Assembly: GCA_017514805.1 (NCBI GenBank)
Contig: JAFWIP010000004.1
Span: 47,690 to 111,689, forward strand
DNA: 64,000 bases
Reading direction: 5' to 3'
From: Candidatus Saccharimonadota bacterium
GTDB lineage: Bacteria; Patescibacteriota; Saccharimonadia; Saccharimonadales; Saccharimonadaceae
Of this stretch, positions 1-62,272 are shown piece after piece. Under the pieces are notes generated by a model. The model worked only from the letters and a program-made list of their open reading frames with translations, was not told where the DNA came from and ran no database searches. Both the position numbers and the translations under genes were made by a program. Every line of letters starts with the position of its first letter. The first letter of the stretch is position 1.

Positions 1-272
1 AGCGCGACGATTGCATAGCCTTGCCCTTTGAGTTCTCGAATCGTATCGTTGATTTCAGCGCGCGACCAATCCAATATCTCCTCGGCGCCGAGGGCAGTTT
101 TATGAATTTGCTTGCGCAGTTTTTCTTGCTCATAAGGCAGACCTTTGTCAAAGAAAGGCGTATAGCCGGTAAAAATCACTCGCTCTACCCCTAGACAATC
201 GCAAGTGCGCAAAATTGCACCAACATTATATGTTGATCGAATATTATATAGAATAACCGTAAGCTGTTTCAT
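1..272 (-). CDS. SpoU/TrmH-family RNA methyltransferase, C-terminal part outside window
   Basis: The reading frame starts at an ATG (270-272) and runs off the left edge after 90 codons without a stop, so only the N-terminus is seen. It begins MKQLTVILYNIRSTYNVGAI and continues LRTCDCLGVERVIFTGYTP, which matches motif 1 of SpoU (SPOUT) 2'-O-ribose methyltransferases: an N-x-G-x-I-x-R stretch followed by a beta strand and glycine. Such enzymes methylate rRNA or tRNA riboses using SAM. The SAM-binding knot lies outside the window, so the target cannot be given. The gene is divergent from pilB; its start codon touches the pilB -10 element. Confidence 0.8.
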   Translation of the reverse strand, partial: MKQLTVILYNIRSTYNVGAILRTCDCLGVERVIFTGYTPFFDKGLPYEQEKLRKQIHKTALGAEEILDWSRAEINDTIRELKGQGYAIVA

Positions 273-280
273 GATATACT
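272..280 (+). promoter_or_regulatory. Extended -10 promoter of pilB, predicted leaderless
   Basis: TGATATACT ends 6 bases before the pilB ATG at 287. A start site at the usual distance from a -10 falls on or next to the ATG. No Shine-Dalgarno site is possible. Confidence 0.6.
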
Positions 281-286
281 TATATT

Positions 287-1906
287 ATGGACGAAGGTGA
301 GGTTCAAGCCAAGCGTAGACAGAATGAAGAAGATGCGACCGCGCGCCGGGCGCACATTTTGGGCATGATTTATCTTGATACGCGCGAGTTTGAGCGCGAT
401 ATCCCTTTGACTGTCGGCGTGATATCTAAAGAACAGATGCACAAGGATTTCATTATCCCACTACAAGAGGGTGATGAAGTAAGACCATATCAGTTTATGG
501 TAACTAGCCAAACGCCTAGCAGTGCAATCGACAAGATTGAAACTGATTATAGTAGCCGCGGCCTTAGGACTGAATTTTATCTTATTTCTAATTCGGCTTA
601 TCAGGTTTTTATGCTGCGCCACGATCCGCCAATGCAGGTTCACTATGACGATATCGAGATCGCTTCCGAGGGCGACAGTGAAACAATTCAGCAAGTCTCC
701 AAGACGCTCGATAGCGTTTCGACCGACAAAGTCTTTGATTATCTCTTAAATCAGGCTGATAAACTCGGCTCGAGCGATATTCATATTGAGAATATGCGCG
801 ACGTAATTCGCATTCGTATGCGCGTCGATGGCATTCTTCACCCAGTTGCCGAGATTAGTCGCGATAAATACCGTATCTTTATGGGCGAACTTAGCTCGCG
901 AGCGAATGTTTCGACCGCTAGCATGAAGCCGCAGTCTGGTCACATGCAGATGGATATCCATCGCGATGGCGCTTCGCATGTGCTCAATATTCGTGTCGAG
1001 ATGGTGCCGACGATGTATGGCCATGACGCTGTTTTGCGCTTATTTAACTTCGATGAGAGCTTATTGAATCTCGATTTGCTCGGTATTACAAAAGAAGAAC
1101 GTGACGCAATTGAAGAGATTATCTCGCATCCACGCGGCCTAGTCTTGATGGTTGGTCCAACTGGTTCCGGTAAATCTACGACACTCTATTCGATTCTAAA
1201 CGCACTCAATACCACTGAACGCAAAATTATCACGCTTGAGGATCCGATTGAGTATGGCATCCCTGGCATTTCGCAGATTCCAATCGCCACTAATGAAGGC
1301 GGCTCGTTTGCCGAGGCTTTGCGCAGCGTTTTGCGCTTGGACCCAGACGTAGTGATGGTTGGCGAGATTCGCGATGGCGATACGGCGCGCACCGCAATTC
1401 AGGCCTCGATTACTGGCCACTTAGTGCTATCGTCGTTCCACGCAAACTCTACTTCCGCAGCATTCTCGCGTATGATTGATTTGATTGGCGTAAACCCAAT
1501 TTTCTCATCGTCGATTCGTCTCTTGATTGCGCAGCGCCTCGTTCGCAGACTCGACGACAACAAAGAGGCCTACCATCCGGACGAAAGCACAGTGCGCTAC
1601 ATCCGCCAGGTACTTGAAGGCGTAGATCTGAGTAAGTATGATTTCGACCTGAATAATATTACACTCTGGCGCGAAAAGCCGTCCGAAGAAAGTCCATTCG
1701 GTTTTAATGGCCGTACGGCAATCATGGAGCAATTAATCGTATCTGAACCAGTCCAGAAGTTTATTCGTGGCGATGTGCGTGATATTAATACGAACGAAAT
1801 CGAAAAGACCGCTCGCGCCGAGGGGATGCTTACGCTCGAGCAAAAAGGCGTCCTTGCGGCACTTCGCGGCGATACAACAATTGACGAAATTGGACGCGTA
1901 ATCTAG
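287..1906 (+). CDS. pilB: Type IV pilus assembly / type II secretion ATPase (PilB/GspE family)
   Basis: 539 aa. This cytoplasmic hexameric ATPase powers pilus extension through the inner-membrane platform. Seen: an N-terminal N2-type domain, Walker A GPTGSGKST near residue 289, and a Walker B/His-box region DPDVVMVGEIRDGDTARTA near 352 followed by SITGHLVLSSFHANS. The four-Cys zinc module common in GspE/PilB is absent: no cysteines lie between the ATPase core and the C-terminus. The platform protein PilC and retraction ATPase PilT are not in the window, but minor pilin-like genes lie at 39.8-44.2 kb. PilB rather than PilT is favoured by the N-terminal domain and length. The start is set by the leaderless promoter. 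Confidence 0.9.
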   Translation: MDEGEVQAKRRQNEEDATARRAHILGMIYLDTREFERDIPLTVGVISKEQMHKDFIIPLQEGDEVRPYQFMVTSQTPSSAIDKIETDYSSRGLRTEFYLISNSAYQVFMLRHDPPMQVHYDDIEIASEGDSETIQQVSKTLDSVSTDKVFDYLLNQADKLGSSDIHIENMRDVIRIRMRVDGILHPVAEISRDKYRIFMGELSSRANVSTASMKPQSGHMQMDIHRDGASHVLNIRVEMVPTMYGHDAVLRLFNFDESLLNLDLLGITKEERDAIEEIISHPRGLVLMVGPTGSGKSTTLYSILNALNTTERKIITLEDPIEYGIPGISQIPIATNEGGSFAEALRSVLRLDPDVVMVGEIRDGDTARTAIQASITGHLVLSSFHANSTSAAFSRMIDLIGVNPIFSSSIRLLIAQRLVRRLDDNKEAYHPDESTVRYIRQVLEGVDLSKYDFDLNNITLWREKPSEESPFGFNGRTAIMEQLIVSEPVQKFIRGDVRDINTNEIEKTARAEGMLTLEQKGVLAALRGDTTIDEIGRVI

Positions 1907-1945
1907 TCTTAACAGGGGGTGGAGATTGATTTTTTGGCGCAAGTG

Positions 1946-1990
1946 TGCTATAATATAAGTATGAGCTACCTTTGGTAGCCAAGTTTTTTG
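1946..1990 (+). promoter_or_regulatory. Extended -10, five-codon leaderless ORF and hairpin with T-run (attenuator- or terminator-like)
   Basis: TGCTATAAT (1946-1954) lies 6 bases before ATG at 1961, which opens a five-codon frame MSYLW ending in TAG (1961-1978). The same bases form a perfect hairpin GCTACC-TTT-GGTAGC (1965-1979) followed by a run of six T. It may simply terminate pilB, or may be a short attenuated leader upstream of the next gene, which has its own -10 (TGGTATTAT, about 2001-2009). Confidence 0.4.
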
Positions 1991-2000
1991 TCAACATTTT

Positions 2001-2040
2001 ATGGTATTATTCATATTCCCCACAGATAAGGAGGTGATAT
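2001..2040 (+). promoter_or_regulatory. Promoter and perfect Shine-Dalgarno site of the orphan gene at 2042
   Basis: An extended -10 TGGTATTAT is followed about 25 bases later by AAGGAGGTGAT, a full match to the 16S anti-SD, 5-6 bases before a GTG start at 2042. This contrasts with the leaderless genes around it. Confidence 0.55.
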
Positions 2041-2041
2041 C

Positions 2042-2473: not shown

Positions 2474-2480
2474 TACCAAA

Positions 2481-2512: not shown

Positions 2513-2521
2513 ATATTTTAA

Positions 2522-3112
2522 TTACTCAGTGACACCAAGCTCGATGCGCTTGAACTGGCGGACAGTGATGTTCTCGCCGGTCTTTGCGATTGCTTCCTTG
2601 ATGAACTGCTCGACAGTCTTAGAATCATCAAGGATGTATGGTTGATTCATGAGAACCTTGTCAGAGAAAGCTTTCTTGACCTGGCCTTCGAGAATCTGAT
2701 CCTTCATGTTCTCTGGGCCCTTGAAGTTAGCTTCAAGTTCTTTAATCTTTGCAGCCTTAACCTCTTCTGGGATATCGGCTTCAGAGACGTAAAGTGGGTT
2801 CATTGAAGCGATCTGCATTGCGATCTGATGTGCGAGAGTCTTGAACTCGTCGGTCTTTGCGACGAAGCTAGTCTCACAGTTAACTTCTACGATTGCGCCG
2901 AGGCGGCCATCGTGGATGTAAGCATCGATAACACCTTCGCGAGTCTCGCGGTCACCGCGCTTCTCTGCCTTGGTGAGACCTTTTTTGCGCATAGCTTCGA
3001 GTGCCTTATCGAAGTCACCGTCAGCTTCAACGAGAGCTTTCTTTGCATCAGTAAGACCCACACCGGAGAGCTCTTTGAGTTTTTTGATTGATTCAATGCT
3101 GATTTCAGCCAT
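2522..3112 (-). CDS. tsf: Translation elongation factor Ts
   Basis: 196 aa. Exchanges GDP for GTP on EF-Tu. The N-terminal UBA-like module (IKKLKELSGVGLTDAKKAL) and the core signature CETSFVAKTDEF are clear. It is of the short EF-Ts type (about 200 aa, as in Thermus and cyanobacteria), lacking the long second core repeat of the E. coli protein (about 283 aa). It follows rpsB by 21 bases with an AGGAG site, the classic rpsB-tsf operon, and ends at the shared terminator 2481-2512. Confidence 0.97.
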   Translation of the reverse strand: MAEISIESIKKLKELSGVGLTDAKKALVEADGDFDKALEAMRKKGLTKAEKRGDRETREGVIDAYIHDGRLGAIVEVNCETSFVAKTDEFKTLAHQIAMQIASMNPLYVSEADIPEEVKAAKIKELEANFKGPENMKDQILEGQVKKAFSDKVLMNQPYILDDSKTVEQFIKEAIAKTGENITVRQFKRIELGVTE

Positions 3113-3133: not shown

Positions 3134-3832
3134 TTATTTTGCAATTTTTGCCTTGCCCTCTTTGATAGCAGCGGCAAAGTAATCGAGAATAAGTTTGACG
3201 GCCTTGATAGCATCGTCGTTAGCTGGGATAGGGAAATCTACCTCGCTTGGATCAGTGTTAGTATCGCAGATTGCGAAGACTGGAATGTTAAGAGTCTTTG
3301 CTTCTTTGATAGCATTCTTGTCCTGAATCGTATCGGTTACAATAACGGCAACTGGCTGCTCAGCCATATCTTTGATGCCGCCATAGCGTTCATTAAGAGT
3401 ATCGATCTCTTCCTGGAAACGCTGAACCTCGAGCTTGTTATAGCGCTTTTCGAGCTCACCCGAAGCCATGCGGCGCTCGAGATCTTTGAGCTTGCGAATC
3501 TGCTTAGTAACAGTCTCAACGTTGGTAAGCATACCGCCAACCCAACGAACCGTAACATATGGCATGTCGACGGATTCGGCAGCTTCTTTTACTGCACCCT
3601 TGAGCTGTTTCTTCGTACCGACGAAGAGAATCTTCTTGCCCTTAGCGGCGAGCTTAGTCATCTCTGGCAAAGCTTCGTCGAGAGCGTCGACGGTCTTTTC
3701 AAGGTTGATAATGTGTGCGCCTTCGCGCTTGCTGTGAATGTATGGAGCCATCTTTGGGTGCCAGCGGCTGGTCTTGTGACCAAAATGTGCGCCAGCAGCA
3801 AGAAGCTCCTTGATATCTGCTTTTACAGGCAT
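3134..3832 (-). CDS. rpsB: 30S ribosomal protein S2
   Basis: 232 aa, normal S2 length. N-terminal KELLAAGAHFGHKTSRWHPK and the later GGMLTNVETV and PAIVVTDT-like stretches are typical of uS2, which binds the 30S head and recruits S1. First gene of rpsB-tsf. The start has an AGGAGAAGG site, and a TATAAT (3890-3895 on the minus strand) about 50 bases upstream gives a conventional leader that includes a small GCTAC-TAT-GTAGC hairpin overlapping the region before the SD. Confidence 0.97.
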   Translation of the reverse strand: MPVKADIKELLAAGAHFGHKTSRWHPKMAPYIHSKREGAHIINLEKTVDALDEALPEMTKLAAKGKKILFVGTKKQLKGAVKEAAESVDMPYVTVRWVGGMLTNVETVTKQIRKLKDLERRMASGELEKRYNKLEVQRFQEEIDTLNERYGGIKDMAEQPVAVIVTDTIQDKNAIKEAKTLNIPVFAICDTNTDPSEVDFPIPANDDAIKAVKLILDYFAAAIKEGKAKIAK

Positions 3833-5981: not shown

Positions 5982-6036
5982 AACTCCCTATATTCTATCA
6001 CGATATAGCCTCGCTCGCCACTTTTAGAGATTCTTA

Positions 6037-6045
6037 TGCTAAAAT
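6037..6045 (+). promoter_or_regulatory. Extended -10 promoter of lepB, predicted leaderless
   Basis: TGCTAAAAT ends 6 bases before ATG 6052. Confidence 0.6.
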
Positions 6046-9382: not shown

Positions 9383-9391
9383 ATTATAGCA
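9383..9391 (-). promoter_or_regulatory. Extended -10 of the RpfB-like/rsmA unit
   Basis: TGCTATAAT on the minus strand, 8 bases before the ATG at 9374. A second in-frame ATG lies 6 bases further. Confidence 0.5.
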
Positions 9392-10242: not shown

Positions 10243-10251
10243 ATTATACCC
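10243..10251 (-). promoter_or_regulatory. -10 promoter of tilS, predicted leaderless
   Basis: GGGTATAAT, 7 bases before the tilS ATG. Confidence 0.55.
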
Positions 10252-10265: not shown

Positions 10266-10274
10266 TGCTACAAT
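10266..10274 (+). promoter_or_regulatory. Extended -10 of the PRC-barrel gene
   Basis: TGCTACAAT, 10 bases before ATG 10285; a leader of only 3-4 bases is expected. Divergent from the tilS promoter with 14 bases between them. Confidence 0.5.
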
Positions 10275-11599: not shown

Positions 11600-12640
11600 T
11601 TACTCGTCGTTTTTAGCAGCCTCGCGAACCTTTGCCTCAATCTCAGCCATGAGTTCTGGCTTTTCTTTAAAGAGATTCTTGACCGCTTCACGACCTTGGC
11701 CAAGCGTCTCGCCATTATACTTAATAAATGCGCCAGACTTCTCAAGGATATTGTGGCTAACGGCGAGATCGAGCACGTCGCCCGTCTTGCTAATACCTTC
11801 GTTATACATAATGTCGAATTCGGCAGTACGGAATGGGGCCGCAATCTTGTTCTTAACTACCTTGATCTTAGTACGGTTACCCGAAATATCGTCGCCAGAC
11901 TTAATCTGGCCAATGCGGCGAATATCAATGCGTACCGAAGCGTAGAACTTGAGCGCGTTACCGCCAGTAGTAGTTTCTGGGTTACCAAACATTACGCCGA
12001 TCTTCATGCGAATCTGATTAATAAAGATAACAGTCGCCTTAGTCTTGCTAATAATACCGGTAAGCTTACGCATTGCCTGCGACATAAGTCGGGCTTGGAG
12101 ACCCATCTGAGCATCGCCCATATCGCCATCAATTTCCGCCTGAGGAACAAGAGCCGCAACGGAGTCGACGACGATAAGATCAACAGCGCCAGAGCGAACA
12201 AGCGTCTCACAAATTTCGAGAGCTTGTTCACCATTGTCGGGCTGAGAAATTAACAAATCGCCAGTATTAACACCAATCTTGCGCGCATAAGCTGGATCAA
12301 GCGCATGCTCTGCATCAATGAAAGCTGCTTGACCGCCCTGCTTTTGAATTTCAGAAATCGCATGAAGAGCCAATGTCGTTTTACCAGAGGATTCAGGGCC
12401 ATAGATCTCGATGATGCGGCCTTTTGGATAACCGCCACCAAGCGCTAAATCAAGTGCAAGCGAGCCAGAAGAAAATAGCTCAACGTCAATCTTGGACTGA
12501 TCACCCAGCTTCATAATCGAGCCATCGCCAAATTGTTTTGTAATCTGCGATAGGGCAAGATCAAGAGCTTGTTTTTTGTTTGAATCGTTTTTTGTTTCGG
12601 TCTTACCGTCGCCCACCTCTTTCTGACTCTTTTTGGCCAT
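11600..12640 (-). CDS. recA: Recombinase RecA
   Basis: 346 aa, normal length. ATP-dependent strand exchange and SOS co-protease. Walker [10 protein letters not shown] at 81-89, Walker [12 protein letters not shown]1 loop [15 protein letters not shown] and L2 with [20 protein letters not shown] are all intact. AGGAGG site before ATG; -10 TGTTAAAAT at 12667-12675 (minus strand). No LexA-type palindrome was seen in front of it. Confidence 0.98.
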
Positions 12641-13984: not shown

Positions 13985-13993
13985 TGATATACT
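13985..13993 (+). promoter_or_regulatory. Extended -10 of the HTH-MurA gene, predicted leaderless
   Basis: TGATATACT, 6 bases before ATG 14000. It begins 11 bases after the yebC terminator T-run. Confidence 0.6.
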
Positions 13994-13999: not shown

Positions 14000-15541
14000 A
14001 TGAAGAAGCAAGCAGATTACATGGTTGAAATAGGGAATATAATTGCGATGGCGCGCACTCGCAAAGATATGACCCAGGCAGAACTAGCAAAGATAATCGG
14101 CACTAGCCAATCTGCCATCAACCGAATAGAGCATGGCAAGCAAAATGCATCTCTTGAGATAATTTCTAAGATAAGCCGCGCACTAAATTACCAGATTATT
14201 TCAATTAACGAAAGTGCCACTCAGGGCTTCCGCATCAATGGCGGCAAAGAGTTGCACGGCAGCGTTACGATTAACACTTCAAAAAATGCCGCCGTCGGTC
14301 TGCTTTGTGCTTCACTCTTAAACGAGCGCTCAACTACTCTTAAACATCTCGCGCATATCGAAGAAGTATATCGCATTATCGAAGTGCTAGAATCGATTGG
14401 AGTTAAAACAACTTGGATCAACGATAATCGCGACTTATTAATTGAGCCACCGAAGAAATTAAACATAGAAAACTTAGATATCGCCGCCGCTCGTCGCACG
14501 CGCACGATAATCATGATGCTTGGTCCATTACTTCACCACTTTAAGCATTTTAGACTCCCCTACGCCGGTGGATGTTCGCTCGGTTCTCGCACAGTAGAGC
14601 CACACCTACATGCTTTAAAGAGCTTCGGGCTCGATGTTGACGCCATTAGCGAACCGGGCTTCTATAATGCAGCTGTACGCAAGGTAACAAATGATAGTCG
14701 CAAGATTGTTTTAATAGAACGCGGAGATACAGTGACAGAGAACGCGTTGATGGCCGCCGCACTTTGTCCTGGCGAAACCACAATTGTCGGCGCTAGCCCG
14801 AACTATATGGTCCAAGACGTTTGTTTCTTCCTACAAAAACTTGGCGTACAGATCGAAGGAGTTGGCACGACAAACCTAGTCGTACGCGGCATAGAACGAA
14901 TTGCAACCGATATCGAATACGAACCGAGCGAAGACCCAATCGAAGCAATGAGCTTTATTGCTGCCGGGATTGTCACTAAGTCTGAAATCGAAATTAAGCG
15001 CGTGCCAATTGAATTCTTGGAAATTGAACTCGAAATACTTAGAACAATGGGCCAAAAAATGACTGTCTCTCCTGAATATCTCGCAGATAATGGGCGCACT
15101 CGCTTAGCGGACGTCCGCTTAAAGAAATCAAAACTCGTGGCGCCGATTGATAAAATTCACCCGATGCCATTCCCTGGACTCAATATCGATTCTCTACCAT
15201 TCTTCTCAGTTATTGCTGCCACCGCAAAGGGGCGCACACTAATTCACGACTGGGTGTTCGAGAATCGCGCAGTTTATTCGACCGAGCTTTCTAACCTTAA
15301 TGCAAAAGTCGAATTACTTGATGCGCATCGCGTGTTTATCACCGGCCCAACGAATTGGCGTCCAGCCGAATTAATGGCACCACCAGCCCTCCGTCCAGCA
15401 GTAGTCGTAATGCTTGCGATGTTAGCAGCTCCGGGGAAGTCAATTTTGCGCAATACATACTCAATTGCGCGCGGATACGAGAACTTTGCTCGACGTCTCG
15501 TGGAGCTTGGCGCCGACATAGAGCAATTATCAGATATATAA
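14000..15541 (+). CDS. murA: Fusion: XRE-type HTH domain + UDP-GlcNAc enolpyruvyl transferase (MurA-like)
   Basis: 513 aa. Residues about 9-70 are a Cro/C1 helix-turn-helix (MTQAELAKIIGTSQSAINRIEHGK). Residues about 77-510 are a full MurA/EPSP-synthase fold, about 430 aa, the normal MurA size. MurA adds enolpyruvate from PEP to UDP-GlcNAc, the first peptidoglycan step. Kept: Lys-Asn in INTSKNAAVG, loop Cys (fosfomycin target) in AGGCSLGSRTVEPHL at residue 192 with its downstream Arg, Asp in FPGLNIDSLPFF, Arg in ALRPAV. Changed: IDRGYE of other MurA is IARGYE here. The single frame has no frameshift, so the fusion is real in this sequence. Leaderless start includes the HTH. Confidence 0.88.
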   Translation: MKKQADYMVEIGNIIAMARTRKDMTQAELAKIIGTSQSAINRIEHGKQNASLEIISKISRALNYQIISINESATQGFRINGGKELHGSVTINTSKNAAVGLLCASLLNERSTTLKHLAHIEEVYRIIEVLESIGVKTTWINDNRDLLIEPPKKLNIENLDIAAARRTRTIIMMLGPLLHHFKHFRLPYAGGCSLGSRTVEPHLHALKSFGLDVDAISEPGFYNAAVRKVTNDSRKIVLIERGDTVTENALMAAALCPGETTIVGASPNYMVQDVCFFLQKLGVQIEGVGTTNLVVRGIERIATDIEYEPSEDPIEAMSFIAAGIVTKSEIEIKRVPIEFLEIELEILRTMGQKMTVSPEYLADNGRTRLADVRLKKSKLVAPIDKIHPMPFPGLNIDSLPFFSVIAATAKGRTLIHDWVFENRAVYSTELSNLNAKVELLDAHRVFITGPTNWRPAELMAPPALRPAVVVMLAMLAAPGKSILRNTYSIARGYENFARRLVELGADIEQLSDI

Positions 15542-15553: not shown

Positions 15554-15562
15554 TGGTAAAAT
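15554..15562 (+). promoter_or_regulatory. Extended -10 of the gatCAB operon, predicted leaderless
   Basis: TGGTAAAAT, 6 bases before the gatC ATG (15569). Confidence 0.6.
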
Positions 15563-22531: not shown

Positions 22532-22542
22532 ACAACCTCCTA

Positions 22543-24557: not shown

Positions 24558-25445
24558 TTAGCGAAAGATTCCGCGCTTTTTCGATTTACCGAATTCTTCA
24601 ATCAGCTCTTTTTGTTTCTTATTGAGATTGCGCGGAATTTCAACGTTAATTGTAACAATATGCGGACCACGCTGATCGGAGCCAAGATGCGGTGCGCCAT
24701 GTCCGGAAAGCTTAAAATTCGTACCTGGCTGAGTGCCGGCCGGAACTTTCATCGTAATCTTACCATCAACTGTCTCAACATCAATCTCAGTACCAAGCAC
24801 CGCATCAACCATCGAAATCGTGACATCCGAGAGAATAAGGTCACCCTCACGCGTGAGATGCTTATGTGCGCGAACACGAACCTCGACGTAGAGATCGCCA
24901 CGTTGTCCATCGGCAGATGGAGCTTCCCCGCCCTTGCCAGCTAAGCGAATTGACTGCCCATCAAAAATACCTGCTGGAATCTTTAGCTTAGTTTGGTTGC
25001 CATCAACAGAAATAGTCTTCGTTGCGCCAAAGATTGCTTCCTCGAAATCAATCGTAATACTCGTACGATAATCGCGACCACGACGAGCGCCGCGGAAACC
25101 GCCACCGAAACCAAAAATACTACCAAGGATATCTTCGAAGCCGCCGCCGCCAAAGTCAAAATTGAAGCTTTGGCCGTTTGCGCCACGGAAGCCAGCAAAT
25201 GGATCGCCACCGCCATCACTGCCAACACCAGCATGGCCAAACTGATCATAACGACTACGCTTAGTCTTATCGCTAAGGACAGAATAGGCTTCGTTTATTT
25301 CCTTGAACTTCTCTTCCGCTTCCTTATCGCCTGGATTTTTGTCCGGATGATACTTAACGGCAAGCTTACGAAAAGCTTTCTTTATTTCATCATCAGATGC
25401 GCCTTTTGCGACGCCTAAAACCTCGTAGTAATCACGTTTACTCAT
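24558..25445 (-). CDS. DnaJ-family co-chaperone without zinc-finger domain (CbpA-like, type II)
   Basis: 295 aa. J-domain with HPD in [10 protein letters not shown] (about 33), Gly/Phe-rich linker (about 75-120) and two C-terminal beta domains ([26 protein letters not shown]). The four CxxCxGxG zinc repeats of classic DnaJ are missing, so it is type II (CbpA-like). It stimulates DnaK, which is not in the window. TGCTATACT ends 7 bases before ATG, so leaderless. A CIRCE-like palindrome abuts the -10, suggesting heat-shock repression by HrcA. Confidence 0.92.
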
Positions 25446-25452: not shown

Positions 25453-25461
25453 AGTATAGCA
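25453..25461 (-). promoter_or_regulatory. Extended -10 of the dnaJ-like gene, predicted leaderless
   Basis: TGCTATACT, 7 bases before ATG 25445. Confidence 0.6.
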
Positions 25462-25492
25462 CTTAGCACTCTACCCCGCAAGAGTGCTAAGT
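25461..25492. promoter_or_regulatory. CIRCE-like heat-shock operator
   Basis: ACTTAGCACTCT - 8 bases - AGAGTGCTAAGT, a perfect 12-bp inverted repeat containing TTAGCACTC and GAGTGCTAA, the two CIRCE half-sites bound by HrcA. The gap between the 9-mers is 10, not the canonical 9. It lies directly upstream of the dnaJ -10 and overlaps the last codons of the neighbouring DMT gene. Confidence 0.75.
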
Positions 25493-26439: not shown

Positions 26440-26448
26440 ATTATACCT
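26440..26448 (-). promoter_or_regulatory. -10 of the DMT transporter gene
   Basis: AGGTATAAT ending 8 bases before ATG 26431; it overlaps the stop of the upstream CBS gene (26448). Confidence 0.5.
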
Positions 26449-27176: not shown

Positions 27177-27182
27177 ACATCT

Positions 27183-27191
27183 ATTATAGCA
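27183..27191 (-). promoter_or_regulatory. Extended -10 of the CBS gene, predicted leaderless
   Basis: TGCTATAAT, 6 bases before ATG 27176; back to back with the divergent -10 at 27198. Confidence 0.6.
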
Positions 27192-27197
27192 TCAGCG

Positions 27198-27206
27198 TGA
27201 TATACT
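27198..27206 (+). promoter_or_regulatory. Extended -10 of the DsbA-like gene, predicted leaderless
   Basis: TGATATACT, 6 bases before ATG 27213. Confidence 0.6.
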
Positions 27207-27212
27207 AATTAC

Positions 27213-28836: not shown

Positions 28837-28842
28837 ATTATA
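28837..28842 (-). promoter_or_regulatory. -10 of ruvA, predicted leaderless
   Basis: TATAAT, 7 bases before ATG 28829, preceded by TGT. Confidence 0.5.
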
Positions 28843-28853
28843 ACAGAGTAAAT

Positions 28854-33257: not shown

Positions 33258-33266
33258 TGGTATAAT
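33258..33266 (+). promoter_or_regulatory. Extended -10 of ruvB, predicted leaderless
   Basis: TGGTATAAT, 7 bases before ATG 33274. Confidence 0.6.
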
Positions 33267-35925: not shown

Positions 35926-35931
35926 ATTATA
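35926..35931 (-). promoter_or_regulatory. -10 of murJ
   Basis: TATAAT, 9 bases before ATG 35916; nearly leaderless. It lies just before the ftsH stop (35934). Confidence 0.5.
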
Positions 35932-35933
35932 CC

Positions 35934-37829
35934 CTAATCATGAAGTTTTGCTGCGGCTGGCATCGAGGTGCCTTTAAGGATAGCAGCGACTTCTTTTTCC
36001 TCTAATGATTCTTTTTCTAGAAGAGCCTGTGCGAGCGCATCAAGATGCTTCTTGTTAGCTTTAAGAACAGCTTCGGCGCGAGCATTTGCTTCTTTCGTGA
36101 GAGCTTCAATTTCGGAATCAATAATCTCAGAAGTTTTCTCAGAGTAGATTTTTGCGCGGTCGCCGAAGAAGTTTACTTCCTCGGTATTAAAGACCTGGTC
36201 GCGAAGCTTCGTGCCCATACCCTCCTCGGAGACCATCTCGCGAGCAAGCTCGGCAACATGTTGAAGGTCGGAGCTAGCACCAGTAGTAATGCCGTCGGCG
36301 CCAAGAATCAAACGTTCAGCAACACGACCGCCCATTGCGCGAGCAAGGACATCCTTTAGCTCATAGACATTCTTGTAGCTACGATCTTCTGGAGGAAGGA
36401 ACCAAGTGACGCCACCCGTGCGACCACGTGGAATAATCGTAACTTTATGAACAGGATCAGAATCCGGAAGAACATGGCCAACAATTGCATGACCTGCTTC
36501 ATGATAAGCGGTGATCTTGCGCTCCTGCTCATTCATGACCTTTGATTTACGCTCTGGACCAATCGCAACACGCTCAAATGCCTCAGTAACATCATCATTT
36601 GTAATTTCTTTGCGATTGTTGCGAGCAGCACCAATTGCAGCTTCGTTCGCAATGTTTGCGAGATCTGCACCACTGGAGCCAGCCGTCTTTGCGGCAAGTG
36701 CGTTAAGGTCAACATTGTCTGCGACCGGCTTATTTTTGAAGTGAACTTTAAGAATTTCGACACGATCTGTGCGCTCTGGAAGCGTAACATTGACGTGGCG
36801 ATCGAAACGACCTGGGCGAAGAAGCGCTTTATCGAGCATATCGACACGGTTAGTTGCCGCAATTACGATTACGCCAGTTTCATTATCGAAGCCATCCATC
36901 TCGACGAGGATCTGATTGAGCGTCTGCTCATCTTCGCGGCCAGCGCCACCACGCGCATCGCGTTTGTGCGCAACCGCATCAATTTCATCGATAAAGATAA
37001 TGCTTGGGGAATTTTTCTTTGCTTTAGCGAAGAGGTCGCGAACACGAGATGCGCCAACACCTACAAACATTTCAGCAAACTCAGAGCCAGAAATTGAGAA
37101 GAACGGAACATTTGCCTCTCCCGCAACAGCACGAGCCATGAGAGTTTTACCGGTACCCGGATCGCCAGCAAGAAGAACACCGCGCGGGATCTTGGCGCCA
37201 ACTTTTTCATACTTCTTCGGATTCTTAAGAAAATCGACAACCTCGGAAAGATCTTGCTTGGCAGCTTCATTGCCAGCTACGTCAGTAAAGAGAACTTTCT
37301 TTTTCTCGTTGCCATAGACACGTGCTTTTGCTTTGCCGAAGCCCATATTTTGGTTATTCATGCTCTGCGCCTGACGCATCATGAAAATCAAGAAGCCGAT
37401 AATGAGAATCGTCGGAACAATGATAAAAGCCGCATCAAGAATGATGCCAAATACATCAGTATCATCTTCGATTTCGACAGAAACCTTGCCTTCATTGATT
37501 ACTTCCTCAAAGCCCTGCTCCTGGAGAGTACCAGAACCATCTTTGCGCGAAATGATATTCTTTGGCAAATCAGTTTTGTCTTTTGCAGTCACTCTAAGTT
37601 CATTGCCTTTGACCTCAATCTTTTCGAGCTTTTCTGCCTTTGCATAGCTAAGCACTTCTGTGATAGTGCGCTGCTCGGCATTTTTGAAGCCATCGCCATT
37701 AAGACTTGTCGTAAATGAATAGATTAGAAATGCAACTAGTAACCAAAAGATTCCTAGTCTGACAACGTTAAGAAATTTGTTGGGTTTCTGCGGCTTTTTC
37801 TTGCCGGCAGTATTTTTGTATTCTGGCAC
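35934..37829 (-). CDS. ftsH: ATP-dependent zinc metalloprotease FtsH
   Basis: 631 aa. Two membrane segments (about 24-42 and 128-150) flank an external domain; then AAA+ (Walker [10 protein letters not shown] near 223, Walker [33 protein letters not shown]) and the M41 protease with zinc site [12 protein letters not shown] near 443. Degrades misfolded membrane proteins and regulators. GTG start with AGGAGT site; promoter GGTATAAT at 37858-37863 with a 28-base leader. Confidence 0.97.
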
Positions 37830-39604: not shown

Positions 39605-39613
39605 ATTATAGCA
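39605..39613 (-). promoter_or_regulatory. Extended -10 of the PMT-like gene
   Basis: TGCTATAAT, 10 bases before the chosen ATG (39594) and 4 before the upstream ATG. Confidence 0.5.
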
Positions 39614-44156: not shown

Positions 44157-44164
44157 ATTATACA
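44157..44164 (-). promoter_or_regulatory. -10 of the pseudopilin genes, predicted leaderless
   Basis: TGTATAAT, 6 bases before ATG 44150. Confidence 0.55.
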
Positions 44165-49488: not shown

Positions 49489-49497
49489 ATTTTAGCA
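49489..49497 (-). promoter_or_regulatory. Extended -10 of the pilus locus, predicted leaderless
   Basis: TGCTAAAAT, 6 bases before ATG 49482; starts one base after the T-run of the rny terminator. Confidence 0.6.
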
Positions 49498-51468: not shown

Positions 51469-51869
51469 TCTTGCGTAATCTCCCGAGTATTCTCGTCAAT
51501 ATATTTGATTTCTATCGTGACATGATTTTGAGGAAGGATGTCTTTAATGCTCTGCCCCCATTCAATGACCGTAATTATGTTTGGATCGTAAATTGTTTCA
51601 GCTAAATCCTCTGCCATTAAACCAGGATCTTCTAGGCGGTAAAAATCATAATGAACGAGAGTGTATTTTTCGCCGCGATATTCGCGAGAAATCGTAAATG
51701 ATGGCGAGCTAAGCTCAGCTTGTACGCCAAGACCTTTTGCGAGGCCGCGCGTAAAAGTAGTCTTGCCGGCACCAACATCGCCAATTAGCTCAATAACGGC
51801 TGGCGCCACTAATGTAGCGGCAAACTTCTCACCGTATTCCAACATCTCCTGCTCAGAATGAATTAACAT
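51465..51869 (-). CDS. tsaE: tRNA t6A biosynthesis ATPase TsaE
   Basis: 134 aa from ATG 51869, the third codon of the longer frame, because TGGTAAAAT (51876-51884) ends exactly 6 bases before it. P-loop LIGDVGAGKTTFTRGLAKGLG (about 36), LVHYDFYRLEDP and IEWGQSI are family marks. The TGA stop overlaps the tsaB start. The promoter lies inside the end of comEC, so tsaE does not depend on comEC translation. Confidence 0.93.
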   Translation of the reverse strand: MLIHSEQEMLEYGEKFAATLVAPAVIELIGDVGAGKTTFTRGLAKGLGVQAELSSPSFTISREYRGEKYTLVHYDFYRLEDPGLMAEDLAETIYDPNIITVIEWGQSIKDILPQNHVTIEIKYIDENTREITQE

Positions 51870-53128
51870 GTACATATTTTACCATAATTACAGCGGTAGC
51901 TGTGCTTCGTGACCAGTTTGAGAACGACTAAAATGATTAGGATTGGAATATACAGCAGAAACGTAATCGGATTGTTTGGCTGAAAATCAGCCACTGCCCA
52001 AGGTACGCTCGCGATACCGTCAATAACAGCTAAATGGAATTGCACTAAAACGCCCGTTATAAAGGCAAATGGAGGAAATGCCGTAACGCCGGCTAGCACA
52101 GTAAACAACATGACAAAAGAAATTGTCGGCGAGATTAATATATTTGCGAGTAAGGCAAGTAGCGATACGCTCCCAAATGCGTAGATCGTAAGCGGGAGGC
52201 AAAAAAGCTGCGCCGAAATGCAGGCGATAATTAGATTCGCTAAAGCACTTGGTTTATTATCTCCGTAGAGAAACTTACTTATGAGTGGCGTCATGAGAAT
52301 TATCCCGGCATAAGACGCAAAGGATAATTGCCAGGCGAGATTATTAATGTTGTCGGGATTAATTAATAAAGTTAGCGCCGCAACAAAAATTAACATTCTG
52401 ATTGGATGAAATTTTCGGCCAAAATACCATCCCCATAGTGTCAAAAATGATACTAGCCCAGCGCGTGCAATGCTCGGGCTAAAGCCGGTAATGCAAATAT
52501 AGATAAACAATAGCATCGAAGCTCCGGCAAGCGTGACAAAACGCGAAATCTTGCCAAAATACTTTTTTGCAAAGCCGACAACTACAGCTAAATGGAAACC
52601 AGACGCGACCACCGCATGCGCTAAACCAGCAGTGCGAAGATTGGCTTTTTGCTCTTCGGTCAAAAGATTTTTCTGGCCAGTTAAATAGCTAAGCGCGAGA
52701 TTACTCTGCTCTTCATTATTAATAAGCCTAATCACATTCTGCGAAATCATATCACGGACTCGCAAAGCAAAATCTGGCACCGAAGGACTTGCGCGAGTGA
52801 GTATTGTTGGCCGGTACATAAACGCCGCGGAATTTGCGAAGCCTTGCTGAAGCTGCCCTCGAAGAGTTAATTGCTCAGAACGCAAATAGCTATCGTTTGT
52901 CTCGAGCATAACATAAACAAGCCCTAGGTTTGTTTCGAGTCCAATGCGCAGATCGCTGCCTTTGCGAATAGGATCGCTAGAAATCGTGCCCGTAATAATA
53001 TAGTTTTTATTTTCAAAATCAAGCTTCGGCTGCGGAAGAATTATTTTTCAAAATATCACTACCGCAATAATAATAGCAGCAATAATTAGTGTGAAAATCG
53101 ATATATGAGGGCGAGTATTCTTCTTCAT
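51863..53128 (-). pseudogene. comEC: comEC-like DNA-uptake channel gene interrupted by an in-frame TGA
   Basis: 422 codons from ATG 53128 (leaderless, TAGAAT ending 7 bases upstream). Codon 27 is TGA (53048-53050); the same frame continues without break through an OB-like stretch (NYIITGTISSDPIRKGSDL) into the Competence membrane domain (LTEEQKANLRTAGLAHAVVASG, GFSPSIARAGLVSFLTLWGW). Trp (TGG) at this position would fit: IAVVIF-x-KIILPQ. The C-terminal metallo-beta-lactamase domain of large ComEC proteins is absent, and the frame ends over tsaE. Either a nonsense mutation, a sequence error or read-through; an internal start at 52909 would remove the N-domain. Confidence 0.75.
51876..51884 (-). 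promoter_or_regulatory. Extended -10 of tsaE-tsaB, predicted leaderless, inside comEC
   Basis: TGGTAAAAT, 6 bases before ATG 51869. Confidence 0.55.
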
Positions 53129-53189: not shown

Positions 53190-53198
53190 TGATAAAAT
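53190..53198 (+). promoter_or_regulatory. Extended -10 of the LtaS-like gene, predicted leaderless
   Basis: TGATAAAAT, 7 bases before ATG 53206; decides the ATG over the GTG at 53203. Confidence 0.6.
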
Positions 53199-56530: not shown

Positions 56531-56539
56531 ATTATAGCA
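56531..56539 (-). promoter_or_regulatory. Extended -10 of metG, predicted leaderless
   Basis: TGCTATAAT, 7 bases before ATG 56523. Confidence 0.6.
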
Positions 56540-57054: not shown

Positions 57055-58496
57055 ACTAATAGTTTAGCACGCTCAAATAGTTTAGATATTTCATGTCGAA
57101 ACTGAAAGACGACATATGCCAATACGAGCGATCCGACTACAATGAGCGCGAATGCTGCGATAAATATCTGCGGATTATCATAATTCTCATGCGAAATGTC
57201 TTCGACTGGAAACTGCGAAGCGTCCTGGCGTTTCTTGCGACAACGATTTGTCTCCGCGTTCAACTCATACCCTTCTGGGCAAGTTTTGGCCGTACTTGCA
57301 GCCGCCCGTTTCTTACATCTCCCCGTCAACGGATTTCGATAATAACCATCTTTGCACGGTTCCTGACTCTTCGTTTCGGGACTCTTTTTGCAGCGATTAG
57401 TCAGAACATTTAAATACTGCCCTTCCGGACAAGTTTTAACTATCGAGCTAGCAAGCGATTTTTCGTTAATACAGTTTCCCGTTTCCGGATTAATAATCTT
57501 CCCTTCTGGGCAGGTGCGAAATTCTTGATATTCATTATCCGTGGCGGGCGTGCGCGCAAAAGTTATTAGTCATTGTTCGTCAATGAGCGCGTACGAGGCT
57601 CCGCGTTTTTGGCCATGATAGTAAACCAACGAGTCAATAAGCCCATTGCCGTCAAATAGCTCTACGGCAAGCGACGTGCTTGGATCTTTTGTCAATAAAA
57701 TATCCTGAATAACCGTGTAGCTATTCGCCTCAAGCTCACCCTGAAGGGTGTATGTTTTATTTTTATATCGAAGATAGCAGACCGATAGCTGCAAATTATA
57801 ATCATTCGAATTATATAATTCTATAAATTGCTCCGCAGAACTTTCTTCGTAGTATGAATATAGTTCCGTTATTATTAGGCCAGCACAGGACGGCGATTCA
57901 ATAGGCTCTGGCTCCGGAACAATAATTGCCTCGGGATCAATACTTGGATAATATTCATCCAGCGAATACTCCTCGGAACAGTCCGCATGACAGATAATGA
58001 CACTACGGTTATCGCTTTGTTTGGTCGCAAATTTCGGTAGCTGCCGTTCGCAGTCTATTTTTCCCCAGCAAATTTCATCGATAATATTTTCTTTCTGAAC
58101 AATACGCAAACGGCCAGAGGTCGAAGCTAAGCCGCTAGAACTAAAATTATATAAATAGCGCGTTGGAGCATCTTGATATTGCGGACTCTTACTAAAACCA
58201 AAGACAACCGTATTTGCACGGAGGATGGTAGGCTCCGCAAATTCAAGTTCGCCGGCAAGGCTGTCGCTGCTATTGTAGTACTGAATTCGAAAAGACGATA
58301 AGTCCAAGTCGTCAGCAATGCCTTTTTCGAGTTCAAAGAAATCATAATTTTGCGCGGAGGCATCATCTTTATATCCAGCATTGACGGCGCGAAAATAAAG
58401 CGGCGCGGAAGTTGATGACTCTTCTGCGAATACCGGCTTTGCCAAAACAAGCAGGGCGATAATTCCAAGGCTAGTGAAAATTTTGATAACTTTCAT
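57033..58496 (-). pseudogene. Lamin-tail/Cys-repeat surface protein interrupted by an in-frame TGA
   Basis: 488 codons from ATG 58496 to TAG 57033, broken at codon 309 by TGA (57570-57572). Before it: signal peptide (KVIKIFTSLGIIALLVLAKP) and a lamin-tail-domain part near 205-308 (GLIITELYSYYEESSAEQFIELYN, GRKRGAS-like end). After it, the same frame reads LITFARTPATDNEYQEF and four Cys repeats of the type TCPEG-N-P-ETG-x-C (KTCPEGQYLNVLTNRCKK), then a membrane segment (IFIAAFALIVVGSLVLAYVV) and a basic tail. Lamin-tail domains commonly close with Trp then TP..N, so TGG is the expected codon. Without read-through the protein loses its anchor. Confidence 0.75.
57061..57069 (-). promoter_or_regulatory. 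Extended -10 of ruvC, predicted leaderless
   Basis: TGCTAAACT, 6 bases before ATG 57054; lies within the end of the upstream gene. Confidence 0.5.
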
Positions 58497-58570: not shown

Positions 58571-58579
58571 TGGTATAAT
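58571..58579 (+). promoter_or_regulatory. Extended -10 of the 58586 operon, predicted leaderless
   Basis: TGGTATAAT, 6 bases before ATG 58586. Confidence 0.6.
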
Positions 58580-59279: not shown

Positions 59280-59543
59280 ATGGCGCGAGCGAAGAAAAAA
59301 ATCACATACGAATATTCGTCGGATGGTATAAAGCAAAGCATTTTGCGCCAAGCAAGAAGCCTAAAAATCGCGCCAGGCTGGGCGAAACAAATTGCTGACA
59401 AAGTCGCCGATTCGGTCGATAAATGGATGGCCGACAAAGATATTGTGACCGAGAATGATCTACGCAAAAAGATCATAAAAGAGCTTGAATCATTGAGCCC
59501 CGATATCGCTTTTGCTTATAAAAATCATGATAAAATAATATAA
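59280..59543 (+). CDS. Small protein resembling an ATP-cone domain
   Basis: 87 aa. The spacing (ITYEYSSDGIKQSILRQAR, about 35 residues of helices, DIVTENDLRKKIIKELESL, DIAFAYKNHDKI) looks like the ATP-cone of NrdR and ribonucleotide reductases, ending in the AxxY motif. The family match is by eye and weak; no zinc ribbon is present, so it is not NrdR. ATG one base after the preceding stop. Confidence 0.5.
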   Translation: MARAKKKITYEYSSDGIKQSILRQARSLKIAPGWAKQIADKVADSVDKWMADKDIVTENDLRKKIIKELESLSPDIAFAYKNHDKII

Positions 59544-59544
59544 G

Positions 59545-60906: not shown

Positions 60907-60910
60907 AAAG

Positions 60911-60937
60911 GCGCCCGTCAAAACGGGCGTTTTTTGA
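60911..60937 (+). terminator. Intrinsic terminator
   Basis: CGCCCGT-CAAA-ACGGGCG followed by six T. Confidence 0.85.
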
Positions 60938-60970
60938 TGATAAAAAAATAGTCCTAATTGGACTAAAACT

Positions 60971-61047
60971 TGGTGGCGGGGGTTGGATTTGAACCAACGA
61001 CCTTCTGGTTATGGGCCAGACGAGCTACCAGGCTGCTCTACCCCGCG
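60971..61047 (-). tRNA. Initiator tRNA-fMet(CAT)
   Basis: 77 nt with encoded CCA. The D-arm GAGCAGCCTGGTAGCTC is that of bacterial initiators. Acceptor CGCGGGG/CCCCGCC leaves pair 1-72 unpaired (C.C), the initiator hallmark, though E. coli has C.A. Anticodon loop CCCATAA has C33 instead of U33. Anticodon stem TCTGG/CCAGA has two, not three, G:C pairs next to the loop. Confidence 0.9.
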
Positions 61048-61067
61048 ATGATTACATAATTATATAT

Positions 61068-61484: not shown

Positions 61485-61490
61485 AAGGAT

Positions 61491-61499
61491 ATTATAGCA
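61491..61499 (-). promoter_or_regulatory. Extended -10 of the FtsB-like gene, predicted leaderless
   Basis: TGCTATAAT, 6 bases before ATG 61484. Confidence 0.6.
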
Positions 61500-61531
61500 T
61501 CACAGATGCGTTAGGCGTACTATCGGAACTG

Positions 61532-61540
61532 TGGTAGAAT
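61532..61540 (+). promoter_or_regulatory. Extended -10 of tRNA-Ile(CAT)
   Basis: TGGTAGAAT, 10 bases before the mature 5' end. Confidence 0.5.
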
Positions 61541-61550
61541 TATAAGGTAT

Positions 61551-61626
61551 GGGGGCATAGCTCAGTGGTTAGAGCAGTCGGCTCATAACCGATTGGTCGC
61601 TGGTTCAAACCCAGCTGCCCCCACCA
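61551..61626 (+). tRNA. tRNA-Ile2(CAT), lysidine-modified type
   Basis: 76 nt with encoded CCA. Acceptor GGGGGCA/TGCCCCC, anticodon loop CTCATAA. Body (GCTCAGTGGTTAGAGCAG, TTGGTCGCTGGTTCAA) follows the bacterial tRNA-Ile2 and not elongator tRNA-Met; a perfect 1-72 pair excludes the initiator. TilS is encoded at 9426. Elongator Met remains the alternative. Confidence 0.75.
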
Positions 61627-61670
61627 AATTTTATAAAACTCGGCATTTTTGCCGATTTTTTAGTGGTAAA
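61617..61670 (+). repeat. Imperfect direct repeat, copy 1 (tRNA 3' end + terminator)
   Basis: From CCCCCACCA of the tRNA through the terminator. About 80% of bases match copy 2 at 62338-62390, which starts CCCCCGCCA and keeps ATTTTATA, TCGGCATTTT and the T-run. The pair brackets the NUDIX gene. Confidence 0.4.
61640..61661 (+). terminator. Terminator of tRNA-Ile(CAT)
   Basis: TCGGCA-TTTT-TGCCGA then six T. Confidence 0.8.
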
Positions 61671-61792
61671 ATTCTGTTAAGTACCTTCTGAGTTCTAGTA
61701 TGTATTCTTGTGCCAATTTTGCATAAAAAATGGGGGTAAAAACTGCCGTTCTACCCCTATAAATTCGTCTGTTAATACCCTATCTAATTTGG

Positions 61793-62257
61793 TCACCAAC
61801 CAAACTCTTGATAGAAAAGACCGTCATTCTTAAAACGATCCAACGCTACCTTTCGCGAATCAATCATATCCTCTGGCAATTCGTCCTCGTTAAACCATTT
61901 TAGTTCGGAAACTTTTTCTGGTTCACTAATCTTTATTTCGCCAGAATAATCGGTTATTTTAAAACACCCTAGGAATCTTGGTTCGCCATCCCCAAAAGAA
62001 TGTAATAACCCCATAAATTCAATATTTTTCGGATTAACATCAATTCCTATTTCTTCTTTCGCTTCGCGACATACTGTCTTAGTCATCGGCTCGTTTTTTT
62101 CGACATGCCCTGAGGCGGAAAAATCCCACATCCCATCGGCGAAACCAGTATTCTGTCTCTTTTGTAAGAGATACTCTGTATCGCCATTTGTATTTTTTCT
62201 AGTCAGCAAAATTAATACTGCCGCAATTGTCCTAAAACGTCCATCTGCATTATTCAT
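61793..62257 (-). CDS. NUDIX hydrolase
   Basis: 154 aa. Full Nudix box: GHVEKNEPMTKTVCREAKEE followed by IG, within an ADP-ribose/8-oxo-dGTP type fold (LLTRKNTNGDTEYLLQKRQN; WDFSASGHVE). Cleaves a nucleoside diphosphate linked to another moiety; substrate unknown. Leaderless: TGATAAAAT (62264-62272) ends 6 bases before ATG. It lies between two imperfect copies of the tRNA-Ile 3' end. Confidence 0.92.
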   Translation of the reverse strand: MNNADGRFRTIAAVLILLTRKNTNGDTEYLLQKRQNTGFADGMWDFSASGHVEKNEPMTKTVCREAKEEIGIDVNPKNIEFMGLLHSFGDGEPRFLGCFKITDYSGEIKISEPEKVSELKWFNEDELPEDMIDSRKVALDRFKNDGLFYQEFGW

Positions 62258-62263
62258 ATTTTT

Positions 62264-62272
62264 ATTTTATCA
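62264..62272 (-). promoter_or_regulatory. Extended -10 of the NUDIX gene, predicted leaderless
   Basis: TGATAAAAT, 6 bases before ATG 62257. Confidence 0.6.

Follow-up and report, generated by a model that had tools for sequence, protein, structure and literature searches.

Extended -10 elements six to seven bases before start codons in a Saccharimonadota genome suggest leaderless initiation shared by most sampled Patescibacteria

The closest described system is that of the Deinococcus-Thermus group, where a -10 element located about 6-7 bp before the open reading frame (ORF) leads to leaderless mRNA, as concluded, in the part of the text available, from mutation of the box and measurement of RNA (PMC12340547). 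About a third of the ORFs of D. radiodurans include such an adjacent -10, and mutating the box abolishes expression (same part of PMC12340547). TA-led genes, those with a TA-like signal about 10 bp upstream, were found in 207 of 953 bacterial genomes and comprise about 20% of the genes in Actinobacteria and about 40% in Deinococcus-Thermus (Zheng et al. 2011, available sections, PMC3160421), and GeneMarkS-2 predictions place leaderless transcription in 21.6% of the bacterial species (according to an excerpt of PMC9581028). The DNA analyzed here, named the window, is a stretch of 64,000 nucleotides from a Candidatus Saccharimonadota bacterium (assembly GCA_017514805.1, contig JAFWIP010000004.1, positions 47,690 to 111,689) in which many genes carry an extended -10 element almost in contact with the start codon. 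Our reading, to which we assign a probability of about 0.9, is that extended -10 elements 6-7 bases before the ATG likely generate leaderless mRNAs, that a Shine-Dalgarno mode operates beside them, and that this arrangement is probably shared by most sampled Patescibacteria. The architecture known from Deinococcus is found here as a common mode of Patescibacteria. No report on leaderless genes in Patescibacteria, nor one on the location of their transcription starts, was found in the literature covered, which was that under open licence, and one may exist unseen.

Spacing of the -10 element and signs of the transcription start

Both strands of the window were searched for TAnA[AC]T boxes whose end lies 4-12 bases 5' of an ATG with an open frame of at least 60 codons. 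Nine of the 35 resulting rows were discarded as duplicate or internal (11327, 14048, 15164, 26428, 39600, 46649 twice, 49230, and 58496), and 26 genes had the box 6-10 bases 5' of the ATG, with spacings of 6, 7, 8, 9, and 10 in 13, 6, 3, 1, and 3 cases respectively (Table 1). The pattern TGnTAnA[AC]T was counted 13 times at spacing 6 and 6 times at spacing 7. In 200 dinucleotide shuffles of the window the two counts averaged 0.345 and 0.28 and never exceeded 3. The original prediction listed twenty genes with a TGn-type element, 13 at spacing 6 and seven at spacing 7. All 13 of the former were present in the scan, with the tsaE start at 51869 rather than 51875. From the latter group, dnaJ, tilS, ruvA, ruvB, the LtaS-like gene (ATG 53206), and metG were recovered; comEC was not found at spacing 7, also with the looser TAnnnT, and the nearest large membrane gene is murJ (35916), with a spacing of 9. 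The TGn held for most of these 19 genes, tilS and the 44150 gene lacking the full element.

The same spacing dominates the genome to which the window belongs (880,861 bases, 98.9% complete). Counted over the complete sequence, TGNTANNNT-N6-ATG has 103 occurrences and its backwards version 25. A further 395 kb, taken in stretches, showed peaks of TGnTAnAAT before ATG at spacings of 6 (27) and 7 (15) against a background near 3, and no such peak was seen there when GTG, TTG, CTG, and four other triplets were placed after the looser TGnTAnnnT. The spacing count suggested earlier for the genome was run, by pattern on all of it and by stretches on half, and the peak at 6-7 is present. A second count used 395 called genes from 459 kb, about half of the genome; gene starts were set by a simple codon-score caller alone, the upstream motif not being used. 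TAnA[AC]T was located at spacings 5, 6, 7, 8, 9, and 10 in 0, 52, 23, 7, 8, and 5 of these genes, with a background of about 3 per position. The leaderless excess amounts to about 19% of the 395 genes, an undercount since the caller misplaces some starts; the window, with 61 called genes, contains the 26 hand-checked cases. For comparison, we used the best 80 RuvB loci from a scan of named genomes (1,298 called genes), whose titles correspond to Saccharibacteria, Saccharimonadia or Nanosyncoccus in 66 cases and to "bacterium", Nomurabacteria (2), and Chloroflexi (1) in the rest; the top relative of the window's RuvB among them, from sheep jejunum, is 86% identical. Judged by its RuvB, the window's genome belongs to a Saccharibacterium. 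In these named loci the counts at spacings 5 to 9 were 2, 231, 59, 34, and 26, and in a control set of 154 E. coli genes they were 0 at each of the five positions.

The distribution has a one-sided edge: none of the 395 genes has the box at spacing 5, the maximum is at 6, and the numbers decay beyond, as would be expected if the transcription start were fixed relative to the -10 and barred from inside the AUG. The start codon behind the 52 spacing-6 boxes is ATG in 51 cases and GTG in one. A C or T lies directly before the ATG in 48 of the 51 spacing-6 genes versus 132 of 305 others, and in the named loci in 220 of 226 versus 517 of 946. Bacterial transcripts usually initiate at an A preceded by a pyrimidine, so that at spacing 6 the A of the ATG is likely the first base of the mRNA. 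A Shine-Dalgarno sequence was found in 0 of 74 spacing-6/7 ATG genes versus 177 of 305 others, and in 2 of 284 versus 453 of 946 in the named loci. The sharp 6-nt edge, the pyrimidine-A initiator, and the missing Shine-Dalgarno together support, at the sequence level, the earlier claim that transcripts begin on or beside the ATG. The 80 RuvB loci illustrate the pattern for a single gene: of the 74 matches with a start codon at their beginning, 44 carry TAn[AT][AC]T 6-9 nt before it, and the sequence farther upstream of the box is, by eye, dissimilar.

The letters around the box are those of an extended -10. In the 284 spacing-6/7 genes of the named loci the T and G at -15/-14 carry 0.86 and 1.28 bits, with a T and a purine in front of them (TRTGn); their frequencies in the 226 spacing-6 genes are 0.80 and 0.84, and both letters are found in 30 of 51 spacing-6 genes of the window's genome. 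The -35 region of the 284 genes contains less than 0.1 bit, in agreement with the proposal that -35 elements are mostly absent. The window's genome has a single match to sigma-70 region 2. The protein includes regions 1.2, 2, 3, and 4, and shows 58% identity to E. coli RpoD over 242 residues. H455 and E458, which in E. coli contact the TG of the extended -10, are identical in the alignment, and the region 4.2 helix is also conserved. This single sigma-70 may read the TG of the extended -10, in which case the -35 box would probably be unneeded at most such promoters. A sigma factor that lost the ability to read the -35 was ruled out as region 4 is intact, and its conservation indicates that the -35 reader is kept but little used.

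We infer that transcription by RNA polymerase probably initiates at the A of the start codon, and that the ribosome would then begin on a bare 5'-AUG without a Shine-Dalgarno. By analogy with other bacteria, such mRNAs may be loaded by 70S ribosomes or through an IF2-initiator tRNA route. The distance from the -10 to the ATG may set the mode, about 6-10 nt rendering a leaderless or nearly leaderless mRNA and at least about 25 nt a led one. A 16S match was obtained in 8 of 45 genomes of the window's genus, none of them the window's own assembly, and all eight end in GGATTACCTCCTTTC, which includes CCUCC. This tail being kept in the genus, Shine-Dalgarno pairing is available and a loss of the anti-Shine-Dalgarno was ruled out. 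A missing IF3 was ruled out as the cause as well: IF3 was found in the window's genome and in 10 of 10 others, though with low scores in the family f81 described below.

Genes of each mode and the HrcA-CIRCE regulon

First genes of transcription units, defined by an opposite neighbor or a gap of more than 60 nt, were leaderless (spacing 6-9 for this purpose) in 57 of 203 cases in the window's genome, and operon-inner genes, defined by a gap of at most 30 nt, had a Shine-Dalgarno in 86 of 148. Of 62 E. coli proteins used as probes, 42 had a match in the part of the genome that was fetched; only the best match was taken for each, and some names (infB, ileS) could therefore belong to paralogues. 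The 33 matches to ribosomal-protein, RNA-polymerase, EF-Tu/EF-G, SecY, and NusG genes included 28 with a Shine-Dalgarno, five with neither signal, and none leaderless. The other nine consisted of five leaderless genes (truB, obgE, murA, tsaD, and dnaJ), three with a Shine-Dalgarno, and infB, scored by the script as neither, whose GTG start lies 6 nt 3' of a TAAAAT box. The leaderless set consists of other housekeeping genes. The original prediction was right in that two modes coexist, the led rpsB, recA, and ftsH lying beside leaderless genes; its statement that core genes favor the leaderless mode has to be reversed for the translation and transcription machinery. A Shine-Dalgarno leader is kept by many operon-inner genes and by those presumably in heaviest use, which are the genes of the ribosome, of RNA polymerase, and of the elongation factors, as well as dnaK and groES.

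The HrcA-CIRCE heat-shock regulon, whose operator motif is TTAGCACTC-N9-GAGTGCTAA, includes genes of both kinds. The window's genome encodes one HrcA match (C-terminal domain, 64.9 bits) and has three perfect CIRCE sites, that of dnaJ (Table 1) and two with a 9-nt spacer. In the fetched Patescibacteria loci the distance from CIRCE to the -10 downstream of it is 4-10 nt where the gene is leaderless (dnaJ, clpC-like, hrcA) and 5 nt at the led dnaK. Seven clpC-like genes have the order CIRCE, -10, ATG with spacings of 6, 6, 6, 7, 8, 9, and 10; in one of them (L045) a GAGG within the spacer was scored as a Shine-Dalgarno by the script. Other leaderless genes under CIRCE are two dnaJ at spacing 7, two hrcA at 6, and an alpha/beta-hydrolase gene (L145) at 6. 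Led dnaK genes were found in eight loci, seven with a Shine-Dalgarno by the script, and the distance from the -10 to the dnaK ATG is 61, 73, 75, and 88 nt in the four loci in which the promoter could be tied to dnaK. Also led are groES of the window's genome, with an imperfect CIRCE, AGGAGG, and a -10 at a distance of 35 nt, and in L145 a true clpB with AGGAGG and the -10 at 108 nt. Judging from the predicted sites, one repressor with one operator geometry would serve both initiation modes. The CIRCE rows of L031, L045, L085, and the L125 dnaJ were checked by eye, and a DnaK locus from a distant genome (L220) was excluded. Names were assigned by profile search for the clp and dnaK genes of the window's genome, five of the other six clpC-like genes, and dnaJ, hrcA, groES, and clpB; L073 and the other dnaK loci were named from N-termini. 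The label clpC-like, as opposed to clpB, is our own and is based on the N-terminal domain and on a UVR motif in L045.

Three loci deserve mention. In L258 the dnaK promoter has TTGACA within the CIRCE spacer, 17 nt before the -10, so reading of the -35 is probably still in use at some promoters. In L145 (5192-5356) a single CIRCE lies between the diverging led clpB and leaderless alpha/beta-hydrolase gene, and one operator may therefore serve both modes. In L259 (1545-2879) the reading frame of the Clp-type gene that follows CIRCE in the window's genome is interrupted by a stop after 445 codons and continues beyond it, which could be either a broken gene or an assembly error.

The pattern was followed in 379 Patescibacteria genomes, evenly drawn out of a larger group. 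TGNTANAAT-N6-ATG occurs 7,101 times, as compared to 1,890 with N14; spacing 6 is more frequent than spacing 14 in 341 genomes, equal in 7, and less frequent in 31, and all 37 genomes of the window genome's class are among the first. In 18 genomes sampled by stretches, that of the window included, the leaderless excess was 3-26% of the genes. Three others (G049, G366, and G223) had been omitted, the contigs of each being less than 5 kb in all; the rows of G332 (11 genes) and G156 (32 genes) are thin, and those of G228 (72,000 of 111,553 bases N) and G143 (64,000 of 120,000 N) are of little weight since they are mostly masked. The trait, as read from these sequences, is phylum-wide but uneven, and some families seem to have little or none. 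In one family (f20) no spacing-6 excess was found in five of six sampled genomes, apparently a divergent promoter or a loss.

Family f81, represented by G132 (L225), G365 (L226), and G357 (L227) from two genera, has a 16S end, GGAATAATTCAATTTGAA, that lacks CCUCC. Its Shine-Dalgarno counts are about at control level (4 versus 15 at the control position among 197 genes, 5 versus 4 among 121, and 11 versus 9 among 148), and its leaderless peak is strong, with 33, 17, and 15 genes at spacing 6. IF3 scored 42-45 bits there versus 71-116 in seven other lineages. A pyrimidine precedes the ATG in 24 of 33, 10 of 15, and 12 of 15 spacing-6 genes, and in 96 of 142, 72 of 103, and 65 of 116 of the rest; with this weak bias a start on the A is less well supported in this family. 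There may be an even chance that the leaderless extended -10 was a founding mode of Patescibacteria for mid-level genes, with the Shine-Dalgarno for the heaviest, and that f81 lost both Shine-Dalgarno and anti-Shine-Dalgarno, leaving only leaderless or other Shine-Dalgarno-free starts.

Weighing of alternative explanations

Several observations weigh against the proposed leaderless mode or its generality. A weak excess of -35 elements (at least 4 of the 6 letters of TTGACA at 16-18 nt) was detected in the named loci, 58 of 284 versus 35 of 284 at a control distance, and in the window's genome, 15 of 74 versus 8 of 74; TTGACA is also found inside the operator at some CIRCE promoters, leaderless ones among them. 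The spacing-7 class of the window's genome has no pyrimidine bias before the ATG (13 of 23), so a 1-nt leader is equally possible there. Neither signal is found in as many as 70 of the 203 first genes, which form a third class, and 22 of the 148 operon-inner genes also carry a -10-adjacent box. Leaderless genes do not fold consistently more weakly over their first 36 nt than led genes do (-2.83 versus -3.66 kcal/mol in the window's genome, -2.85 versus -2.80 in the named loci); weaker 5' structure as a mark of leaderless genes was dropped for this reason. Across the phylum, spacing 6 did not exceed spacing 14 in 38 of the 379 genomes, and only 126 were individually significant (binomial p <0.001).

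The DNA 5' of the starts is A/T-rich, and the peak could be considered a compositional artefact of such intergenic DNA before ATG in a small genome; the probability of this is negligible, as the peak is not reproduced by shuffles, other spacings, other codons, the backwards pattern, or E. coli. The box could also be an A/T-rich translation signal in the RNA, S1-binding or Kozak-like, instead of a promoter. An A/T-rich bias 5' of starts was noted to be compatible with either S1 sites or leaderless promoters (Nakagawa 2017, as far as the available text goes, PMC5397173), and S1 domains are encoded in the window's genome. On the other hand, the TGn, the sharp one-sided edge at 6 nt, the pyrimidine-A initiator, and the closeness of CIRCE to the box in led and leaderless genes alike are all unexplained by an RNA signal, which we reject as very improbable.

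Another explanation accepts transcription from the ATG but places translation at a later in-frame start with a leader of its own. Gene starts were chosen by codon score and exceptions may exist gene by gene, but the match to RuvB starts at residue 1 in the majority of the 80 loci, the box precedes ATG almost exclusively, and, among the 10 spacing-0 cases of the window's genome, in which the called start conflicts with the box, 4 have an in-frame ATG at spacing 6-9; as a general explanation this is hardly credible. Mixed short leaders have to be taken more seriously, the start wobbling so that many mRNAs have leaders of 1-4 nt and only the spacing-6 class is truly leaderless. Spacings of 7-10 are common in the window's genome, as counted above, and in the 26 spacing-9 genes of the named loci an A is found at +7 of the box in 65% and a T at +6 in 46%, letters that fit a start 3 nt 5' of the ATG. 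We regard this as a tentative possibility, somewhat doubtful as a full account, and one that, for the spacing-6 class, which is the largest, refines rather than replaces leaderless initiation from the extended -10.

Features of the window and comparison with known systems

Table 1. Promoter boxes, operator, and led contrast genes located in the window. Distances are from the end of the -10 to the ATG, given by the position of its first base; products are predicted.
Feature	Position	Strand	Context
Extended -10 TGATATACT	272..280	+	6 nt 5' of ATG 287, pilB/GspE-type ATPase
Led gene rpsB	3134..3832	-	AGGAG 5' of ATG
Extended -10 with TAGAAT	5992..6000	-	10 nt 5' of ATG 5981; short-leader variant
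Extended -10 TGCTAAAAT	6037..6045	+	6 nt 5' of ATG 6052, lepB, signal peptidase I
Extended -10 TGCTATAAT	9383..9391	-	8 nt 5' of ATG 9374; C-terminus of product aggregation-promoting-factor-like
-10 TATAAT without TG	10243..10248	-	7 nt 5' of ATG 10235, tilS
Extended -10 TGCTACAAT	10266..10274	+	10 nt 5' of ATG 10285, PRC-barrel protein
Led gene recA	11600..12640	-	TAAAAT, then short leader, AGGAGG 5' of ATG
Extended -10 TGATATACT	13985..13993	+	6 nt 5' of ATG 14000, HTH-MurA fusion
Extended -10 TGGTAAAAT	15554..15562	+	6 nt 5' of ATG 15569, gatC
Extended -10 TGCTATACT	25453..25461	-	7 nt 5' of ATG 25445, dnaJ
CIRCE, perfect inverted repeat, predicted HrcA operator	25463..25490	-	4 nt 5' of dnaJ -10; 10-nt spacer
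-10 TATAAT	26440..26445	-	8 nt 5' of ATG 26431, EamA-like transporter
Extended -10 TGCTATAAT	27183..27191	-	6 nt 5' of ATG 27176, CBS-domain gene
Extended -10 TGATATACT	27198..27206	+	6 nt 5' of ATG 27213, DsbA/thioredoxin-like
Extended -10 TGTTATAAT	28837..28845	-	7 nt 5' of ATG 28829, ruvA
Extended -10 TGGTATAAT	33258..33266	+	7 nt 5' of ATG 33274, ruvB
-10 TATAAT	35926..35931	-	9 nt 5' of ATG 35916, murJ; perhaps the comEC of the original prediction
Led gene ftsH	35934..37829	-	TGGTATAAT, then short leader with AGGAG; GTG start
Extended -10 TGCTATAAT	39605..39613	-	10 nt 5' of in-frame ATG 39594, PMT_2-like
-10 TATAAT without full TGn	44157..44162	-	6 nt 5' of ATG 44150, pseudopilin-like, N_methyl motif
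Extended -10 TGCTAAAAT	49489..49497	-	6 nt 5' of ATG 49482
Extended -10 TGGTAAAAT	51876..51884	-	6 nt 5' of ATG 51869, tsaE; longer-ORF start 51875 falls in spacer
Extended -10 TGATAAAAT	53190..53198	+	7 nt 5' of ATG 53206, LtaS-like sulfatase
Extended -10 TGCTATAAT	56531..56539	-	7 nt 5' of ATG 56523, metG
Extended -10 TGCTAAACT	57061..57069	-	6 nt 5' of ATG 57054, ruvC
Extended -10 TGGTATAAT	58571..58579	+	6 nt 5' of ATG 58586
Extended -10 TGATAAAAT	59528..59536	+	8 nt 5' of ATG 59545, pyridine nucleotide-disulphide oxidoreductase
Extended -10 TGCTATAAT	61491..61499	-	6 nt 5' of ATG 61484, DivIC/FtsB-like
Extended -10 TGATAAAAT	62264..62272	-	6 nt 5' of ATG 62257, NUDIX hydrolase

The 36-bp divergent gap at 27177-27212 includes two back-to-back extended -10 boxes, those of the 27176 and 27213 genes, and polymerases bound at both would likely exclude each other. 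In the named loci the median divergent gap is 57 bp when both genes are leaderless (20 pairs) and 160 bp when neither is (62 pairs); a general shortening of such gaps was discarded, the values in the window's genome being 184 bp (7 pairs) versus 174 bp (23 pairs). The gene at 14000-15541 encodes MurA with an N-terminal XRE-type helix-turn-helix (residues 15-65), a predicted fusion that looks as if DNA binding and a cell-wall synthesis enzyme had been joined. The products of 24558-25445 (DnaJ, 295 amino acids, as compared to 367 in its relative in L125) and 2522-3112 (EF-Ts, 196 amino acids) are short. Two adjacent long genes at 20603-24498 (642 and 651 amino acids) are both led with GGAGG; a scan of viral contigs with the first product, a 642-amino acid orphan, found no relative.

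Patescibacteria represent a large, barely cultured share of bacterial diversity. A fixed promoter-to-ATG rule would make it possible to read promoters and true start codons, and with them the likely starts of transcription, directly from metagenomes, as in the corrections of ruvB (33274, not the longest-ORF 33175) and tsaE (51869, not 51875), and suggests a design for working promoters in Saccharibacteria genetic tools. In the HrcA regulon a single repressor would act on genes of both modes, which can thereby be compared in a natural setting, and f81 makes the question of Shine-Dalgarno replacement directly testable.

We take Absconditabacteria, Campbellbacteria, Peregrinibacteria, and Wolfebacteria to be lineages of Patescibacteria. 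A scarcity of Shine-Dalgarno sequences together with a 16S lacking CCUCC was reported for the four (Table 4, PMC10783764), and f81 has the same two losses; the available part of that source reports no -10-adjacent signature for them and does not mention Saccharibacteria or Patescibacteria by name. The survey of Zheng et al., based on RefSeq 2010, lists, in its available sections, no Patescibacteria or TM7 group and mentions one unclassified genome (PMC3160421). As in the HrcA-CIRCE regulon of other bacteria, the operator precedes dnaK, groES (imperfectly), dnaJ, hrcA, and clp genes; unlike in the classic arrangement, it lies just 5' of a leaderless -10, and the spacer at the window's dnaJ is N10. 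The extended -10 of E. coli and B. subtilis (TRTGn, or -16 region) lies upstream of TATAAT, has little need of a -35, and normally precedes a leader. The boxes described here share the TRTGn before TATAAT and differ in that they abut the start codon. With respect to Deinococcus-Thermus, mutation and RNA data exist there, as compared to sequence data here; the TGn is strong here, and neither the words "extended" and "TGn" nor Patescibacteria occur in the available main text of PMC12340547. The two systems are alike in that the box is located about 6-7 bp from the ORF, read there by an RpoD sigma, and in that led genes with a ribosome-binding site coexist with the leaderless ones (PMC12340547, in the part available).

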